Source of the DNA: a virus
Reading direction: 5' to 3' (one strand)
Length of the DNA stretch: 36,927 nucleotides
IMG/VR virus record: IMGVR_UViG_3300030333_001113
Coordinates: 1-36,927 of that record
Part shown: positions 9,364-30,835 of the stretch, in pieces
Position numbering within the stretch: position 1 is the stretch's first letter
How the letters are laid out: each line of letters begins with the position of its first letter
Made by a program: the position numbers and the translations under genes
The notes under the pieces: generated by a model
What the model was told of the DNA's origin: nothing
What the model saw: the letters and a program-made list of their open reading frames with translations, nothing else
Databases searched by the model: none

Positions 9364-9671
9364 AACTCATGATCGCAGCCGCTTTAACAGCGGCTTTTTT
9401 TCTGCCTGCGCATGCCGCCGAGTTTAAGATCGCGCCGCCGCAAAACGTGGCGCGCCTTACTTTGCCTTGCTGGCAAAGCAAACAAGTAACCGAAGCGTTT
9501 CGTCGCGCTGAGTTCGACGCTGTTGTGCAAGGGCTGCTAATCAAAAAGACAGACCCGACGCGTTCGCTAATGACGGTATGGCTGCATCACATGACCGGGC
9601 GCGGAGCTGTCGTCATATCGCACCCGAGCGGCGAAGAGTGTATCGCTTTGGTCGTCGATGAGGCGCAGTGA
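9360..9671 (+). CDS. small exported protein with signal peptide, unknown function
   Basis: The 103-residue product starts at ATG 9360 inside the previous stop. The first ~20 residues are a classical signal peptide (MKLMIAAALTAAFFLPAHAA, cleavage likely after AHA). The mature part of ~84 residues has two Cys (LPCWQSK and SGEECIALVV) that could form a disulfide in the periplasm. It lies between tail and lysis genes, so a periplasmic role in lysis or superinfection exclusion is possible but not shown. Unusually, an intrinsic terminator is embedded in the signal-peptide codons (9377-9401). A fortuitous ORF is not excluded, although the signal peptide, Cys spacing and 4-nt overlaps on both sides favour a real gene. 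Confidence 0.6.
   Translation: MKLMIAAALTAAFFLPAHAAEFKIAPPQNVARLTLPCWQSKQVTEAFRRAEFDAVVQGLLIKKTDPTRSLMTVWLHHMTGRGAVVISHPSGEECIALVVDEAQ
9377..9401 (+). terminator. rho-independent terminator inside the 5' end of the exported-protein gene
   Basis: AGCCGCT (9377-9383), loop TTAAC, AGCGGCT (9389-9395), then seven T (9395-9401): a perfect 7-bp stem with a long T run. It would end the tail operon just after the start codon of the overlapping gene, reducing entry into the lysis region. Confidence 0.8.
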
Positions 9672-18215: not shown

Positions 18216-18588
18216 ATACGAGTTGCATCTGCAGATCATCGATTTTCTGCAGGCACGCTTGCCAGCTGGCTCGGTCATTCATCACAGCCCGAACGAGGGC
18301 AATCACAAAATTCAATACCGCATGAAGCAGAAGCGCATGGGCGTGCGGGCAGGCTGGCCCGACTTAGAGATTTTTGTGAGCAAAACATGGTGGCGTCCAG
18401 GGCAACCTTGGTCGCCGATCTTTATTGAAATCAAAACAAAGACCGGGCGTTTATCCGGCAATCAAAGGCAAGTCCAAGAGGAGCTGAAAGCGGCTGGCTG
18501 TCACGTAACAACAGTCAAGTCAGTCGAAGATGTCGAGGTGTTCATCAACACAATTCTGGAGAATCAAAATGGACAACGAAGCATTTGA
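18208..18588 (+). CDS. VRR-NUC domain nuclease
   Basis: 126 residues from GTG 18208 (GGAG 7 nt upstream; overlaps the Cro-like stop). VRR-NUC pattern: GWPDLEIF (Pro51-Asp52), then Glu74-x-Lys76 in IFIEIKTKTGRLSGNQRQVQ with Gln88, the usual D...ExK...Q order. Phage stand-alone VRR-NUC proteins act on branched or flap DNA. It sits in the replication operon just before the DnaA-like gene. Confidence 0.88.
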   Translation: MTEYELHLQIIDFLQARLPAGSVIHHSPNEGNHKIQYRMKQKRMGVRAGWPDLEIFVSKTWWRPGQPWSPIFIEIKTKTGRLSGNQRQVQEELKAAGCHVTTVKSVEDVEVFINTILENQNGQRSI

Positions 18589-18922
18589 GATCGAGGTCAG
18601 AGCAATGCGCGATCTCGAAACCAAATACCCTTTCAAGGTCGCCGACATGCTGACGGCGGTGCGCAAATACGAAAACATCGAACCGACTGCATTGTTCTCG
18701 CTCGGTCGGCGCGCATCGATGGTCATGTGGCGATGGCGCATATTTTATCTTGCTTACCATGATCTCGGCATGTCGCTCACGCAGGTCGGTCGACTGATGA
18801 AGCGCGATCACTCGACCGTGCTGCACGGCCTGCGGAAGTACGACGCCGACGCTGACATCGTCGAGCTGGATCGCATTCGCTTTCTTGCCAAGCTTTGTGC
18901 GAAGGACCGGCAATGCGCGTGA
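18569..18922 (+). CDS. stand-alone DnaA domain IV-like DNA-binding protein
   Basis: 117 residues from ATG 18569 with GGAG 7 nt upstream. The second half matches the DNA-binding domain of bacterial DnaA: RRASMVMWRWRIFYLAYHDL, GMSLTQVGRLMKRDHSTVLH, GLRKY, including the diagnostic RDHSTV signature that contacts DnaA boxes. There is no AAA+ ATPase. Two perfect DnaA boxes lie 1.2 kb downstream in the same operon, so the protein may recruit or compete with host DnaA at a phage origin, or act as a regulator. The N-terminal half is helical and unassigned. Confidence 0.82.
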   Translation: MDNEAFEIEVRAMRDLETKYPFKVADMLTAVRKYENIEPTALFSLGRRASMVMWRWRIFYLAYHDLGMSLTQVGRLMKRDHSTVLHGLRKYDADADIVELDRIRFLAKLCAKDRQCA

Positions 18923-19227
18923 TCATTGAAAGTCCATATGCAGGCGTCGACCTCGATCTCAATGTCGAGTACGCACGTCGGTGCCTGCAGGACAGTCTGA
19001 ATCGCGGCGAAGCGCCATTTGCTAGTCATTTGCTGTACACGCAAGTGTTGGACGACACCGTCAAAGATGAGCGGCGGCTCGGCATGTCACGGGCGCTGTC
19101 ATGGTACGAGAGTGCGGACATGATCTGCGTCTACATGGATCGCGGCATATCTGCAGGCATGCGGTTCGGCATTTCGTATGCCCGGCAGCTTGGCATGCCG
19201 AGAGAGAACAGGTGGCTAGACAAATGA
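18913..19227 (+). CDS. DUF7768-like protein (deoxyribosyltransferase-like fold)
   Basis: 104 residues from ATG 18913. Recognisable pattern: MRVIIESPYAG at the start, EYARRCLQDSLNRGEAPFAS, HLLYTQVLDD, ERRLGMSRAL, and YMDRGISAGMRFGISYARQL near the end. This small phage family resembles nucleoside 2-deoxyribosyltransferase/Rossmann-like proteins; its substrate is not known. It overlaps the DnaA-like gene by 10 nt and the PP-loop gene by 4 nt. Confidence 0.7.
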   Translation: MRVIIESPYAGVDLDLNVEYARRCLQDSLNRGEAPFASHLLYTQVLDDTVKDERRLGMSRALSWYESADMICVYMDRGISAGMRFGISYARQLGMPRENRWLDK

Positions 19228-20030
19228 TCAATATCATCTCCTTAGGCGCGGGCGTGCAATCTAGCGTTATGGCGCTGATGGCAGCGCGCGGCGAGTTAGA
19301 GCCGATGCCAGAATGCGCAATTTTCGCTGATACCGGCGACGAACCCAGAGAGGTTTACGATTGGTTGAACTTTTTACACGATCAATTGCCGTTTCCAATT
19401 CATACAGTGAGAGGTCGGTTTAAGCGCCTTTCAGATGAGTTTACTCACATTACAAAATCAAAAAACGGCAATTATTATCAATCAGCCACGCCACCGGCTT
19501 TCGTTTTTGGCAATTCGAAAGACTCAGGTATGCTGCGGCGCGACTGCACAACGTCGTACAAAATACGACCAATACAAAAATTTGTGCGTAACGTGCTGAA
19601 GGAAAATAACGAAAAAAAAGCACTCGTGTGGTTAGGAATTAGCACCGATGAGGCGGTGCGAATAAAACCGTCGCGCGTCAATTACATCGAAAACACTTGG
19701 CCGCTAATCGACGCACGAATGTCGCGTTCTGATTGTTTTGGATTCATGGAGCGAAACGGATATCCCAGACCGCCGAGGTCGGCATGCGTGTACTGCCCGT
19801 TTAAGTCAGACATGGAATGGCAACATCTGAAAGATAACGCACCTGACGATTTTGCAGAGGCCGTGCGCATTGAAAAAAATTTCCACGACGGTCTCAAAAA
19901 AACAACACGTTTTAAAAATGCCGAGGCTTATTTTCACAAAAGTGGACAGCCTCTTAATCAAGTTGAGTTCGTAGATGAGCGCCAGCCTGACCTGTTTAAC
20001 AACGACTGCGAAGGTCTATGTGGCGTATGA
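19224..20030 (+). CDS. PP-loop ATP pyrophosphatase, PAPS-reductase-like
   Basis: 268 residues from ATG 19224 (ATGA overlap); a longer frame to 19101 lies over the previous gene. The N-terminal IISLGAGVQSSVMALMAARG is a PP-loop-like ATP-binding motif, followed by CAIFADTGDEPREVYDWLNF, as in the phosphoadenosine phosphosulfate reductase family. Cys108 in RDCTTSYKIRP and Cys188-x-x-Cys191 in ACVYCPFKSDMEW resemble three-Cys Fe-S-binding layouts of tRNA/DNA thiolation enzymes. Phage members have no settled function. Sulfur or nucleotide modification of phage DNA is a possibility, but no DndA/C/D/E partners are present. Confidence 0.75.
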   Translation: MINIISLGAGVQSSVMALMAARGELEPMPECAIFADTGDEPREVYDWLNFLHDQLPFPIHTVRGRFKRLSDEFTHITKSKNGNYYQSATPPAFVFGNSKDSGMLRRDCTTSYKIRPIQKFVRNVLKENNEKKALVWLGISTDEAVRIKPSRVNYIENTWPLIDARMSRSDCFGFMERNGYPRPPRSACVYCPFKSDMEWQHLKDNAPDDFAEAVRIEKNFHDGLKKTTRFKNAEAYFHKSGQPLNQVEFVDERQPDLFNNDCEGLCGV

Positions 20031-20590: not shown

Positions 20591-20927
20591 GACAGAGCGC
20601 CGACTGCCTGCAGCCCTGCCGAGGTATCGGGGCAGCTGGTGGCCGGAAGCTCTGCCCGAGTGGCTATCGTATCCCGACGAAATTGCGTGGGTCAGATTAG
20701 GCTCCGCCACGTCGGAACAGGTGACCAGATACGACACCATTGCCAAGCAAATGATCAACGTACAGATCGATGATCGTCGGTTGCTATGGGCAGTCGCTCA
20801 TGCCGGTGCGTTCAGACGGCGTGGGCCGTCCTGGGCGAAGGTCGCAAGATACATGCACTGCGACCGGCGCACCGCTAAGAAACGCTATGAGGAGGCATTG
20901 ATTCATCTATGGTACGCGTGGAGCTAA
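20535..20927 (+). CDS. DUF6362-like phage protein
   Basis: 130 residues from ATG 20535 (GTG 20529 or ATG 20559 are alternatives; none has a strong ribosome-binding site). Family-like features: DMLHDWLIEAAETERRLPAA at the start, a WP-containing loop (RGSWWPEALPEWL), and the C-terminal RRGPSWAKVARYMHCDRRTA followed by KKRYEEALIHL, which looks like a helix-turn-helix. It is common in phage replication regions; role unknown, perhaps regulatory. It overlaps the next gene by 19 nt. Confidence 0.62.
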   Translation: MNAPSSIDMLHDWLIEAAETERRLPAALPRYRGSWWPEALPEWLSYPDEIAWVRLGSATSEQVTRYDTIAKQMINVQIDDRRLLWAVAHAGAFRRRGPSWAKVARYMHCDRRTAKKRYEEALIHLWYAWS

Positions 20928-22085: not shown

Positions 22086-22161
22086 GTACGGCATGAAGAA
22101 GAAGACGAAGAAGGCAGCGGCAAAGCCGAAGAAGATGCGCAAGGTGAGGCGCAGCTACTGA
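22072..22161 (+). CDS. 29-residue very basic peptide
   Basis: ATG 22072 overlaps the end of terS; AAAGGTGA (about 22059-22066) is a good ribosome-binding site. The product begins MPASKYGMKKKTKKAAAKPK; about 13 of its 29 residues are Lys or Arg. It probably binds nucleic acid. The stop overlaps the next ATG (TGATG). First of a run of small basic genes. Confidence 0.55.
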   Translation: MPASKYGMKKKTKKAAAKPKKMRKVRRSY

Positions 22162-22346
22162 TGGCTAAACGTCCCGGCCTATACGCAAACATCCATGCCA
22201 AGCGAAAGCGCGTAGCTGCAAGCAAAGGCAAGAAGCGCATGCGGCGCAAAGGCGAGAAAGGCGCGCCGACTGACGCGCAGTTCGCAGCGGCTGCAAAGAC
22301 AGCCAAGCGCAACAGGAGACGCGGCAAAGGCTTGCTGCGTGGCTAA
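22161..22346 (+). CDS. small basic phage protein, DUF6321-like N-terminal part
   Basis: 61 residues. The pattern KRPGLYANIHAKRKRVAASK, then KGAPTDAQFAAAAKTAKRNR, is one I recognise from widespread short phage proteins. In others it seems fused to the part encoded next, so the family may be split here. Highly basic; DNA binding or packaging role inferred. It overlaps neighbours on both sides. Confidence 0.65.
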   Translation: MAKRPGLYANIHAKRKRVAASKGKKRMRRKGEKGAPTDAQFAAAAKTAKRNRRRGKGLLRG

Positions 22347-22623
22347 AGCGATACGCCGCACGACTGGCAAAGGCGGCAATTATCGTAAGACGAAAGCTGG
22401 CGCAGGCATGACGCAGAAAGGCGTCGCCGCGTATCGTCGAGCTAACCCTGGAAGCAAGCTGAAGACAGCTGTGACCGGCAAGGTGAAGAAAGGCAGCGCC
22501 GCAGCCAAGCGACGCAAGAGTTACTGCGCACGATCTGCAGGGCAGCTGAAGCGCAGCTCGGCAAAGACACGCAACGATCCGAACAGCAGGATTAGGCAAG
22601 CACGCAGACGCTGGAAGTGCTGA
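22339..22623 (+). CDS. small basic phage protein, DUF6321-like C-terminal part
   Basis: 94 residues from GTG 22339, overlapping the previous stop by 8 nt. Contains TTGKGGNYRKTKAGAGMTQK, GVAAYRRANPGSKLKTAVTG and KVKKGSAAAKRRKSYCARSA, typical of this phage/bacterial family of basic proteins. Very Lys/Arg-rich with two Cys. Unknown role, likely nucleic-acid binding. The stop is coupled to the HNH-like gene (TGATG). Confidence 0.65.
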   Translation: MAKAIRRTTGKGGNYRKTKAGAGMTQKGVAAYRRANPGSKLKTAVTGKVKKGSAAAKRRKSYCARSAGQLKRSSAKTRNDPNSRIRQARRRWKC

Positions 22624-22838
22624 TGAAGCGCAATTACCGCAAGGAATACGACAGCTACCATGCCAAGCCAGCACAGCGCAGGCGACGCAGCAGCAGGAAC
22701 AAAGCTCGGCGTAAGATGGCTGGCGCGGGTGCAAAGCTGCTCGGTCTCGATGTTGATCACCGTGACGGCAATCCGATGAACAACAAGCGCAGCAACCTGC
22801 GCGCAGTGAGCAAGGCGAAGAACAGGTCAAGACGATGA
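22623..22838 (+). CDS. small HNH-like protein
   Basis: 71 residues from ATG 22623. An Arg-rich first half (RRRRSSRNKARRK) is followed by LDVDHRDGNPMNNKRSNLRA, which matches the Asp-His...Asn-Asn...Asn-Leu-Arg core of HNH endonucleases. The CxxC zinc knuckles of larger HNH enzymes are absent. HNH proteins beside terminase genes can assist packaging cleavage. In a phage with group I introns, a free-standing homing role is a second option. Confidence 0.7.
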   Translation: MKRNYRKEYDSYHAKPAQRRRRSSRNKARRKMAGAGAKLLGLDVDHRDGNPMNNKRSNLRAVSKAKNRSRR

Positions 22839-27084: not shown

Positions 27085-27308
27085 CGCCGCAAGAGTTACG
27101 ACAGACATACAAGACGCTGTTCAACACCGACGACGGTCAGATCGTCTTGGAAGACCTGCGCACGCGCTTCCATGGCGATCAGCCGACGTTTAGCAGCGAC
27201 GCTTTGGAGATGGCATATCTCGAAGGCCAGCGCAGCGTCATTTTGATTATCAAGAACATGATGAAAGACCTCGATCACAACATAATGGAGATGATGAACG
27301 ATGAGTGA
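27081..27308 (+). CDS. Bbp19-like phage protein
   Basis: 75 residues overlapping the portal stop by 4 nt. Pattern: LRQTYKTLFNTDDGQIVLED, LRTRFHG, and YLEGQRSVILIIKNMM fits the short Bbp19-like family found between portal and scaffold genes. The function of the family is unknown. It overlaps the scaffold start by 8 nt. Confidence 0.7.
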   Translation: MTPQELRQTYKTLFNTDDGQIVLEDLRTRFHGDQPTFSSDALEMAYLEGQRSVILIIKNMMKDLDHNIMEMMNDE

Positions 27309-28152
27309 AATGCTCGCTGGTGAGCAGGTAGCGGAGGTCGCCGATACGGCGGTAGCCACGTCTGACGAAGCGGCAGTCGCAGCTGATTGGAAAGCTGCGC
27401 TCCCTGATGATTTGAGAGAACATCCAAGCATTGCAGGCATGCAGGACGTGGCATCGCTTGCGAAAAGCATGGTGCATGCGCAAAGCATGGTCGGTGCCGA
27501 CAAGATTGCGGTGCCGGGCAAATGGGCAGACGACGAAGACTGGAGCCAAGTATACGACAAGCTCGGTCGACCGGCGTCAGCTGAAGACTACGGTTTGCAA
27601 TTCGAGGTGCCGGACGGCGAGGCTGACCCGGCACTGACCGGCTGGTTTGCAGAGACGGCGCACAAGATCGGTCTGAACACGAAGCAGGCGCAGCAGCTCG
27701 CCGACTCTTACATTGAGTTGACCGGCGGCATGGGTCAGCCGGAAGTCGATCTGGAAGCGGCGAAGGCAGATGCGACTGCGGAATTGCGTCAGGAATATGG
27801 TGCAGCGTTCGATGACCGTCTCGGCAAAGGTAACAATTTTCTCGGCGAGTTCGGTGCGGACGGCCTGATGGAATTGCGGCTGCAAGATGGCACGCCGCTG
27901 ATGAATCATCCGGCTTTTATTCGCACCGTGGTCAACGCCGCGCAGTACATCCATGAGAGCGTCAGCGAGGACAAGCTGATCGGCGACAAGGACAGCAATG
28001 TCGTGACGCCGGGCGAGGCGCAGAAGCAGCTCGAAGAGGTGATGCGTCCCGACAGTCCTTACTGGGATGCGCGACATCCGCAGCACGATGTCTACGTGCA
28101 GCGCGCGCTTTCGATACAAGAGATGATTCATCCAGACCTGGATGATGAATAG
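27301..28152 (+). CDS. capsid assembly scaffold protein
   Basis: 283 residues, acidic, mostly helical and without Cys, with an Ala/Glu-rich N-terminus, DWKAALPDDLREHPSIAGMQ, SLAKSMVHAQSMVGADKIAV, PASAEDYGLQF and a long central helix. This order is typical of T7-like scaffolds (gp9 position: after portal, before capsid). The C-terminal YVQRALSIQEMIHPDLDD would bind the capsid protein. It guides procapsid assembly and leaves before DNA packaging. Confidence 0.88.
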   Translation: MSEMLAGEQVAEVADTAVATSDEAAVAADWKAALPDDLREHPSIAGMQDVASLAKSMVHAQSMVGADKIAVPGKWADDEDWSQVYDKLGRPASAEDYGLQFEVPDGEADPALTGWFAETAHKIGLNTKQAQQLADSYIELTGGMGQPEVDLEAAKADATAELRQEYGAAFDDRLGKGNNFLGEFGADGLMELRLQDGTPLMNHPAFIRTVVNAAQYIHESVSEDKLIGDKDSNVVTPGEAQKQLEEVMRPDSPYWDARHPQHDVYVQRALSIQEMIHPDLDDE

Positions 28153-28301: not shown

Positions 28302-29856
28302 TTGTCGACACAAATCACTGTGGCCTTTTCTCAGCAGTTCAGCACAAATGTCCAGTTGCTGAGCCAGCAGAAAGGCTCACTGCTTCGCCGTGCAGTCAGC
28401 GAAGAATCAATTGTCGGAGAGAAAGCGTTCTTTGATCAAATTGGTTCGGCGACTGCGCAGAAGCGCACAACACGACACGGTGATACACCGTTAGCTTTAG
28501 CGGCTTGATGCGGCGACGCATCTCGAAAACCGGGTGAACTCAAAGGAAGTCTGGCAACAGATAATTTTGAGCCAAGCCGACGAAAGTCGGAAGGTGCAAC
28601 GACCATCGAGAAATCGAGTAGAGCCAAGCGGCTCGAAGCGCCCGGCGTCTTAATAGACGGTGACATGGTCTGATCTGCATGGCGACATGCAGCAGCGAAA
28701 GCGGTGCAAGACTAGCGACCTTGCGCGAACATTATGTAAGTGAAACGCCGCACTCGCGGCGCATGGTTACCATGGATCACTACGAGTACGCGGATTTGAT
28801 CGACGATCCCGATAAAATCCAAATGCTCATCGATCCTACGTCCACTTATGCAAACGCAGCCGCGTTCGCTATCGGGCGTGCCATGGACGACGCCATCATC
28901 GATGCCGCACTTGGTTCGGCTTCGACGGGTAAGGCAGGCAGCACCTCTACGGCGTTGCCAGCTGGTCAAAAGGTTGCTGTCGGTTCACCGGCTGCTGGCC
29001 TTTCTATCGCTAAACTGGTCGAAGCGAAAAAGATTCTCGACCAGAACTCGGTTGACCCAAGTATCAAGCGATACATTGCGGTTCATCCAGAGCAGATCGA
29101 AGACCTGCTCAACTCGACGACTGTCACTTCTAGCGATTTCAATACGGTAGCTTTTGCCTAACTGATCGGCGACGGTCAGCTGAAAACGGGTCAAATTCGG
29201 GGAAGCCTGTAAAATGGTAATCCCGAGCCAAGCCGCATTGCGGAAGGTGTAGAGACTTGACGGCCCGCGTCTCTAGTAGACGAAGAGAAAGTCCAGACCA
29301 CAAACAGCGGAAGCTGGCGGCGAAAGCCGTAGCTGGTACGGAAGGCGCTAGTACAAGGTGACATTAACACGTTCTTGGGATTTGAGTTCATTACCTCAAC
29401 CCGCTTGAACGTCGATAGCTCAAGCCACCGCAAGGTGTTTGCTTGGGCCGAAGACGGCATCAAGCTGGCGGTCGGTAAAGACCTCAAGACCGAGATTGGC
29501 CCACGAGCAGACAAGAGCTACAGCACGCAAGTTTATGTGTGTGCTTCCTTCGGAGCGACCCGTAAATCCATGCGGCCTAGTGCGGCGACGCATTAGTGAA
29601 AACTCGGTGAACTCAGAGGAACTCTCGCAAGAGACAATTCTGAGCCAAGCCAGCGCAAGCTGGAAGGTGCAACGATCATCCAGAAATGGAGTAGGCATCA
29701 AGTGATGCCGAAGCGCCGAGCGTCTCACAGAGACGGTGATATGATCTGAACTGCACGGTGACGTGCAGCAGCGCAAGCGATCTTGGTCTAACGAACCAAG
29801 GTGAACACAAAGTGATGGAAGAAGACAAAGTAGTTCAAATTCTGTGCAGCGAGTAA
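28302..29856 (+). CDS. major capsid protein, interrupted by three group I introns
   Basis: Spliced reading: join(28302..28491, 28737..29148, 29341..29563, 29815..29856), 867 nt, 288 residues and stop. TTG 28302 is preferred over ATG 28290 because GGAGG (28292-28296) precedes it at 5 nt and the product then starts STQITVAFSQQFSTNVQLLS, as in T7-like capsid proteins. Across the joins the protein reads continuously: HGDTPL-SETPHSRRMV, SDFNTV-KALVQGDINTF, FGATR-MEEDKVV, ending QILCSE. Unspliced, the frame stops 17 nt into intron 1. A gene finder without introns would report three fragments and miss the last 13-residue exon. There is 149 nt of 5' untranslated sequence after the scaffold stop, with hairpins but no clear promoter. 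Confidence 0.9.
28492..28736 (+). ncRNA. group I intron 1 (245 nt) in the capsid gene
   Basis: The exon ends in U (28491) and the intron in G (28736). P1: exon CCGU pairs with guide GCGG (28500-28503) in one continuous hairpin CCGUUAGCUUUAGCGG, with the expected U.G pair. P2: GATGCG-GCGA-CGCATC. P3: CCGGG (28530-28534) with CCCGG (28641-28645). Q-like TTTTGAGCCAAG. P6: CCGAC-GAAA-GTCGG. R-like GGTGCAACGACCAT with P7 strand GACCAT (28601-28606) pairing ATGGTC (28665-28670). Two extra hairpins between P7 and P3' (TCGA-GAAA-TCGA, GAGCC-AAGC-GGCTC) suggest subgroup IA. P8: CGTCT-TAAT-AGACG. P9: CTGCATG-GCGA-CATGCAG. No open reading frame for an endonuclease. Confidence 0.9.
29149..29340 (+). ncRNA. 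group I intron 2 (192 nt), different subtype
   Basis: The exon ends ACGGU (29148); the intron ends in G (29340). Frame demands this join: GT|G AAG GCG. P1 is short: exon GGU with GCC (29156-29158), including the U.G pair. P2: CTGATCG-GCGA-CGGTCAG. P4/Q: TTCGGG with AATCCCGAGCCAAGC, a near-consensus Q element. P6: CCGC-ATT-GCGG. R: GGTGTAGAGACTTGA; S: AGAGAAAGTCC; P7 GACTT/AAGTC. P3: CGGG/CCCG. P8: CGTCT-CTAGT-AGACG. P9-type hairpins CAGC-GGAA-GCTG and CGGC-GAAA-GCCG. It lacks the extra P7.1/P7.2 hairpins of introns 1 and 3, so it is not their recent copy. Confidence 0.87.
29564..29814 (+). ncRNA. group I intron 3 (251 nt), paralogue of intron 1
   Basis: The exon ends CCGU (29563), guide GCGG at 29572-29575, and the intron ends in G (29814) before exon ATGGAAGAAG. 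P3: CTCGG (29603-29607) with CCGAG (29716-29720). P7: GATCAT (29674-29679) with ATGATC (29741-29746). Other stems: TCCA-GAAA-TGGA, GGCATC-AAGT-GATGCC, CGTCT-CACAG-AGACG, CTGCACG-GTGA-CGTGCAG, CTTGGT...ACCAAG. Most stems differ in sequence from intron 1 but stay paired, which is strong support for a working structure. Confidence 0.9.
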
Positions 29857-29866
29857 GGAGGTAATC

Positions 29867-30370
29867 ATGGCTAATGTGAATCAAGACCTGGTCACGAACT
29901 TCCTTGCCGATCCGCATGCGATGAACCCGGTTCATCAACTCGGCGGTCGGATGCGTGTCGCCAGCGGCACCATTGCTCTCGCGGCAGGAGACCTGTCTGC
30001 AAGCGACACGGTCATGCTGTGTCCGCTGCCGACGAACGCGTCGGTCGTCTCGATCAAGTTGTTTAACGACGACTTGGACAGCGGTACGACCAATACGTGC
30101 GATGTCGGTCTCTACTCTGCCGATGGCGAGGTTACCGCAATCGATGACGACGCTTATGCGTCGGCGATCACAGACCTTCGGGCTGCTGTGACGACCGGCA
30201 CTGAGGTCGCCTTCGAGGCGCGTAACATCAACACCATGGGTCAGAAGGTCTGGGAAGACGCTGGTCAGTCCAGCGATCCCGGCGGTCACTACCTGCTCGG
30301 ACTTGTTTTCGACGCAGCCGGTGACACAGCGGGCGATCTGTCGTTCGTGGTGACCTACGTGGTCGACTAA
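29867..30370 (+). CDS. probable capsid decoration/minor head protein
   Basis: 167 residues behind AAGGAGGT, the strongest ribosome-binding site seen in the window; its TAAGGAGG overlaps the capsid stop. Begins MANVNQDLVTNFLADPHAMN, then a beta-rich body (MRVASGTIALAAGDLSASDT, VMLCPLPTNASVVSIKLFND, TTNTCDVGLYSADGEV) and an end LSFVVTYVVD. The beta-rich fold, strong translation and place directly after the capsid gene suggest a decoration or head-completion protein. No named family is certain. Confidence 0.7.
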   Translation: MANVNQDLVTNFLADPHAMNPVHQLGGRMRVASGTIALAAGDLSASDTVMLCPLPTNASVVSIKLFNDDLDSGTTNTCDVGLYSADGEVTAIDDDAYASAITDLRAAVTTGTEVAFEARNINTMGQKVWEDAGQSSDPGGHYLLGLVFDAAGDTAGDLSFVVTYVVD

Positions 30371-30415: not shown

Positions 30416-30835
30416 ATGCGCGAGTTAGTTAAATACGCTTTGACCGAAAGCGAAGCGGAGACGATCCGCACGGTCACAATGATGCAGTTCGATCATCCGT
30501 TGGTCGAACGCATGGTCGACATAATGAAATTGCACGCACCGGACGCGGCGGTCACGCCAAAGTCGTATGTGCGTGTTGAGTCAAAAGCAGACGGTCACGA
30601 CTGGCACTGCGACACCGGAAACATGGGTCACATGAAATGGTGCGCTTACAGCGGCAGCGTTTTGCTTACAGATGATTTTGTCGGCGGCGACTTTGAGTTT
30701 GAAGACGGCACGAAGCACAGACATTACCTCGATCTGCTGATGTTTAGCAGCGACGAAAAACACCGCGTGCTGCCACACGGCGGCGGTGATCGCATGGCAC
30801 TGTTATTATTTTTGGGACGCGAAAATGGCGAGTGA
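30416..30835 (+). CDS. 2-oxoglutarate/Fe(II) oxygenase (prolyl-hydroxylase-like)
   Basis: 139 residues. Double-stranded beta-helix signature: iron ligands His64-x-Asp66 in DWHCDTGN and His116 in DEKHRVLP, 2-oxoglutarate-binding Arg126 in GGGDRMALLLFLG, and the typical VGGDFEFEDG loop before them. Such phage enzymes hydroxylate proteins, nucleobases or small molecules; the substrate here is unknown. Its location between head and tail genes suggests late expression, perhaps modification of a virion protein. It has no clear ribosome-binding site and follows a strong hairpin, so expression may be low. It overlaps the next gene by 11 nt. Confidence 0.82.
   Translation: MRELVKYALTESEAETIRTVTMMQFDHPLVERMVDIMKLHAPDAAVTPKSYVRVESKADGHDWHCDTGNMGHMKWCAYSGSVLLTDDFVGGDFEFEDGTKHRHYLDLLMFSSDEKHRVLPHGGGDRMALLLFLGRENGE

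Follow-up and report, generated by a model that had tools for sequence, protein, structure and literature searches.

Organization of the capsid locus

The window, meaning the whole stretch of DNA analyzed here, is the 36,927-base IMG/VR virus record IMGVR_UViG_3300030333_001113, a metagenome assembly representing an uncultured, probably marine phage that is known from assemblies alone. Profile searches of the window revealed a T7-like order of the virion genes together with a tyrosine integrase, and the phage is a podovirus of the HTVC010P type. A capsid frame broken by stop codons sits between a scaffold-type gene (27301–28152) and position 29867, on the plus strand, which also carries the other capsid-region features and the HNH_3 gene described below. 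The product of the upstream gene matches PHROG 3742, and its position suggests a scaffolding or capsid-assembly role. Excision of 28492–28736, 29149–29340, and 29564–29814 yields a single open frame of 288 amino acids, extending from a TTG at 28302 to a stop codon at 29856. The removed lengths of 245, 192, and 251 nt are exactly those with which the initial annotation had rejoined the frame, and all three segments follow a U and end in a G, as it had described. A spliced protein-to-DNA aligner, operating without an RNA model, returned the same three borders; its scores favor a T at the exon end and a G at the intron end, and the junctions in the intronless alleles described below are independent of that reward.

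Exon 1 (28302–28491) begins with the TTG and ends in ...ACACCGU, exon 2 (28737–29148) is delimited by frame restoration and the spliced aligner, exon 3 (29341–29563) ends in ...ACCCGU, and exon 4 (29815–29856) reads MEEDKVVQILCSE before the stop codon. Judged from alignments, the TTG at 28302 is most likely the gene start: it aligns with an ATG in one relative (L062), and another relative (L004) has a start identical to that of the window. The spliced product matches PF19821 (Phage_capsid_2; E = 3.2e-94) and the major head protein family PHROG 3437 (E = 4.4e-94), both over the full length, and is approximately 62% identical to the capsids of HTVC010P-kind Pelagibacter phages. The protein had been called T7-like, a description that did not hold: no profile match to the T7 gp10 family was obtained for the spliced capsid, for which PF19821 was the sole Pfam match and PHROGs 3437 and 267 were the PHROG matches.

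Group I features of the intervening segments

When searched at E values up to 1, the Rfam group I intron model RF00028 matches the three capsid segments and nothing else in the window. Introns 1 and 3 score 66.3 bits (E = 7.5e-15) and 60.6 bits (E = 3.9e-13), respectively. The Rfam check proposed by the initial annotation thus detected all three segments, although intron 2, at 42.7 bits (E = 9e-8), falls below the curated cut-off of 50 bits; several introns of relatives at the same site score 52–72 bits. For group II introns, domain V and the Rfam models related to it gave no match in the window at E values up to 1. The combination of RF00028 matches, U...G borders, and frame restoration is far beyond chance. 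A terminal G and in-frame exon joining are found in all three introns of the window and in all 44 introns mapped in relatives.

The three introns differ in position and architecture. Intron 1 (28492–28736; 245 nt) interrupts the gene in phase 1 at site 64, intron 2 (29149–29340; 192 nt) in phase 2 at site 201, and intron 3 (29564–29814; 251 nt) in phase 0 at site 275, with sites numbered by capsid residue. In the P1 helix of intron 1 (28488–28503), CCGU of the 5' exon pairs with the guide GCGG. The P1 of intron 3 (29560–29575) joins the same target, CCGU, to a GCGG guide, while that of intron 2 (29146–29158) pairs GGU with GCC. Each of the three P1 helices places a U·G pair at the splice site.

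Covariation was evaluated in 22 introns of the intron 1/3 type and 13 of the intron 2 type, covering P1 to P9 and the P3/P7 pseudoknot. In the former set, 95.8% of the cells are paired, versus 35–36% when the partner is slid by 1–3 columns, and changes on both sides occur in 52 of 68 pairs. The latter set shows 98.1% paired cells, with both-side changes in 23 of 48 pairs. In the two sets, 21 of 22 and 13 of 13 introns, respectively, retain the splice-site U·G, and the P1 pairs adjoining it covary in the IA-like set, that is, the introns of the intron 1/3 type. The P3–P9 core with its P3/P7 pseudoknot is present in both sets, and both P7 and P3 covary. The group I identity proposed in the initial annotation is supported by the Rfam model, by the P1–P9 elements and their covariation in these 22 and 13 relatives, and by natural alleles in which each insert is missing and the joint is clean. 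Fold energies gave z values of −4.2 and −4.6 for introns 1 and 3 and −1.6, which is not exceptional, for intron 2; since this measure is weak for intron 2, covariation was used as the main evidence. In-frame stop codons lie 13–33 nt from each 5' border in the window. Of 35 distinct introns, 34 have such an early stop after the 5' border; because the other frames often show one too (40 of 70), no claim is based on this feature.

Two covarying hairpins, P7.1 and P7.2, lie between P7 and P3 in introns 1 and 3 and are missing from intron 2. Introns 1 and 3 thus belong to an IA-like subgroup by the P7.1/P7.2 criterion; they are each other's closest kin (75% identical) and are sisters. Intron 2 is from another subgroup, presumably the tRNA-intron type IC3, and may resemble the Azoarcus and cyanobacterial tRNA introns.

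Judged from these sequence features, the three segments almost certainly self-splice from the capsid message. The guide would pair with the last three or four bases of the preceding exon, setting the U·G at the splice site, and a guanosine bound in P7 would attack the 5' splice bond. The freed exon would then attack after the terminal G, thereby joining the exons. Production of the full-length capsid protein would require three such splicing events.

Capsid alleles with zero to four introns

Alleles lacking some or all of the introns provide the joints directly. The L004 capsid, 98% identical to that of the window at the amino acid level, contains no introns and is joined exactly at the predicted sites. 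Near the site-64 joint, the L004 sequence equals that of the window on either side, so that intron 1 constitutes an exact 245-bp difference. Single-intron alleles, with intron 1 alone (L026 and L027) or intron 2 alone (L040 and L050), are likewise joined at the predicted bases. More alleles were found through exon 2 alone, which avoids missing multi-intron genes, and through the intron pattern. Reading-frame mapping in 24 further relatives located 44 introns of 188–269 nt at ten sites, corresponding to residues 43, 50, 52, 60, 64, 65, 84, 106, 201, and 275, with a maximum of four introns in one gene (L166). Another record, L171, carries a three-intron capsid gene identical to that of the window. 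When these records were searched in full with the RNA model, the intron count of each record equaled that from the reading frames; the two methods, whose inputs differ, agree. The 350 kb covered, which include some incomplete records, contained no intron other than those in the capsid gene. In no relative examined are the intervening segments retained as peptide; the initial annotation had named such retention as refuting evidence, and none of the refuting results it listed appeared.

Probable transfer within a site and appearance at new sites

The site-64 introns of L164, L092, L131, and L140 are identical at 247 of 247 positions, while the exon third positions of L140 agree with those of the other three at only 57–66%. 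Identity is highest in the surroundings of the intron. Over the full set of allele pairs, a common intron goes with synonymous identity that is 0.15 higher within ten codons, relative to the remainder of the gene, an effect equaled in none of 2,000 label shuffles, which only partly allow for relatedness. Alleles with a common intron thus also have tracts of flanking exon in common. Transfer between phage lineages at a given site is therefore most likely to occur by DNA recombination that carries the flanking exon along. The short, endonuclease-free introns would pass from allele to allele through homologous recombination, with the adjoining exon dragged along. Among the genes of the window is one for an Erf-like annealing protein.

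The relationships among sites were analyzed in an intron tree built with the P1 columns removed. The introns cluster by site, with one group per site; site 64 is sister to site 275 (support 100/98), and sites 50, 52, and 106 fall together (support 96/92). Sister sites have a common guide target of 4–5 nt (CCGU for 64 and 275; CGGCU for 50, 52, and 106) and no other evident likeness in their flanks. A site-level permutation of guide target against the intron tree gave P = 0.086, which is weak and at most suggestive. New sites would be seeded by sister introns that recognize a common 4–5-nt target, a pattern that fits RNA-guided reverse splicing.

For these moves between sites, reverse splicing of the excised RNA, directed by the 4–5-nt guide and followed by reverse transcription and recombination, is a serious candidate that we put somewhat short of probable. 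It would suit introns of 188–269 nt, none of which holds an endonuclease, and it would explain why the sister introns at 64/275 and 50/52/106 share a guide target (CCGU and GGCU, respectively) and no further flank similarity, a criterion that has also been applied to fungal rDNA introns (PMC1299323). However, the guide match may instead act as a survival filter: insertions that misfit the guide would fail to splice and disappear, so that a shared target is not proof of reverse splicing. The site-level permutation result also counsels caution. The broader picture of an endonuclease-free intron swarm that colonizes the capsid gene through reverse splicing and then spreads by recombination, giving rise to alleles with zero to four introns, is advanced here as tentative and less likely than not.

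The other route is ordinary homing, in which a nuclease encoded apart from the introns would act on them in trans and new sites would arise through rare ectopic repair. The introns themselves contain no endonuclease gene and have no room for one, as their 188–269 nt accommodate only the ribozyme core. A small, free-standing HNH_3 protein of 73 residues (22617–22838), encoded before the terminase gene, is the sole homing-nuclease-like gene found in the window. GIY-YIG and LAGLIDADG_1 gave no match in 22 records. A PD-(D/E)XK-like ORF at 9668 and another at 20909 were considered as nuclease candidates and set aside, as neither showed a meaningful Pfam match. Service in trans would account for the co-conversion tracts around shared introns, which resemble break repair, and some pelagiphages have HNH_3 kin next to their scaffold and capsid genes. 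However, plain recombination could yield the same tracts, and the sister sites share 4–5 nt only. Furthermore, neither G019 (37 kb) nor G015 (26 kb), both of which carry introns, has the HNH_3 gene, and the intronless G031 does; among the records searched, it occurs in only four intron-bearing records and in one intronless record. The presence of HNH_3 does not track the introns, and no consistent link between them is observed. We consider a nuclease acting in trans possible but rather doubtful.

Selection on the exons and conservation of the guide targets

Between the window-type and L004 exons, dN is 0.032 and dS is 0.45, and the same combination of low replacement and high synonymous change is seen between alleles with or without introns. 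The spliced exons are under strong purifying selection, and the protein is in use. This result bears on the reading that the gene is a decayed capsid pseudogene or that the interruptions are assembly errors, which might be entertained for a metagenome assembly whose frame is broken by stops. Such a reading is very improbable in view of the purifying selection on the exons, the identical three-intron gene in L171, and the precise, structured, and covarying nature of the inserts. Inteins and programmed frameshifting can also interrupt phage genes, but either has a negligible chance here, where in-frame stops lie 13–33 nt from each 5' border in the window and the segments show RNA covariation and no long open frame.

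The exon targets of the introns are conserved where the introns are present. At site 64, the guide-pairing CCGU is found in all ten intron-bearing alleles, and at site 201, CGGU is found in all 14 alleles with the short intron. Among the intronless alleles (97 distinct), the codons at these sites vary widely, with CGGU at site 201 in eight. An IA-like intron of another kind occupies the exact site 201 in L150 (2914–3162), where the exon target is CCGU and not CGGU. Such guide-target conservation would be expected from selection for splicing or from transfer of the introns along with their flanks.

Taken as a whole, the account in which group I introns of the capsid gene self-splice, spread within a site by recombination, and reach new sites through seeding by sister introns has, in our estimation, a probability of about 95%.

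Comparison with known intron systems

The initial annotation had presented three introns in one phage gene as unusual. The three introns are real, but the rarity is less than claimed, since Twort orf142, Bastillevirinae genes, and even a crAss-like capsid gene are precedents for multi-intron phage genes. Twort orf142 is, to our knowledge, not a capsid gene. As described by Yutin et al. 2021 (PMC7886860), the major capsid gene of the crAss-like Zeta phage cMAG OLRF01000054 is divided into five fragments by four spacers, three of which contain group I intron domains. Those introns, in a large gut phage, were recognized through their endonuclease domains (PMC7886860), whereas the window introns are 190–250 nt long, free of endonucleases, and located in a small podovirus for which intronless and single-intron alleles exist. 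According to later accounts (PMC6669764, PMC11878797) of the work of Landthaler & Shub (1999), orf142 of Staphylococcus phage Twort, a Gram-positive myovirus, resembles the window gene in containing three group I introns, and exon skipping has been reported there. The DNA polymerase and terminase genes of Bastillevirinae are split by two or three introns each, most of them of the IA type, with splicing seen in cDNA; in contrast to the present set, these introns average 802 nt, are interrupted by a nuclease gene in 32 of 45 cases, and are not in capsid genes (PMC11878797). The interruption of the capsid gene of mycobacteriophage LittleE was proven by RT-PCR, and the 265-nt tail intron of BAKA lacks a nuclease; both are single introns in their genes, and that of LittleE contains a nuclease gene (PMC3706429). 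Endonuclease-free group I introns at several sites in one gene are known from fungal rDNA, where reverse splicing has been argued and sister introns share just 4–8 nt of the 5' exon, a pattern like that of the window type (PMC1299323). The fungal case concerns rRNA, whereas the phage case concerns a protein gene with co-conversion at the population level.

An intron like intron 2 of the window is present in Pelagibacter phage HTVC120P (MH598807). It comprises 197 nt (19609–19805) within the capsid gene, which was deposited as two CDS (gp29 and gp30) with no intron annotated; when spliced in silico, the capsid is intact and reads ...FPVMGRTVAAYH.... This capsid is of the T7 gp10 type, in contrast to the PF19821 capsid of the window. 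The uncultured Autographiviridae KM23-C739 (KT997847) has the same kind of intron at approximately 22100–22290; its capsid gene is likewise T7-type but is interrupted at a different position, and here too the capsid was deposited as two CDS, and a small HNH-like ORF follows the scaffold gene. No papers on introns in PF19821-type or pelagiphage capsids were found in the open-access literature. What is new here is an endonuclease-free set that occupies ten sites, mixes two intron types, and occurs in graded alleles.

Significance and accompanying genes

Judged from the sequence, phages with genomes of approximately 37 kb appear to need up to four ribozymes to make their most abundant protein. 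With alleles carrying zero to four short, nuclease-free introns, these phages provide a test system for site gain without an endonuclease, and they allow tests of the cost of introns and of why the capsid gene alone is hit. Since the capsid of a cultured pelagiphage was deposited as two genes, such phages may be overlooked or divided in surveys that rely on capsid genes.

Several further genes accompany the capsid region in the window. A 2OG-Fe(II) oxygenase-like gene (30416–30835; PHROG 61, E = 1.2e-5) lies soon after it. Elsewhere, a small ORF (18530–18922) encodes the C-terminal DNA-binding domain of DnaA (PF08299) and adjoins a VRR-NUC gene, and an auxiliary gene resembling phosphoadenosine phosphosulfate reductase is located at 19101–20030. 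A scan for hosts returned mostly metagenome bins together with one 245-kb alphaproteobacterial contig (L176). This contig contains an intronless relative of the capsid (48%) and may represent a prophage, which gives a hint of the host class.
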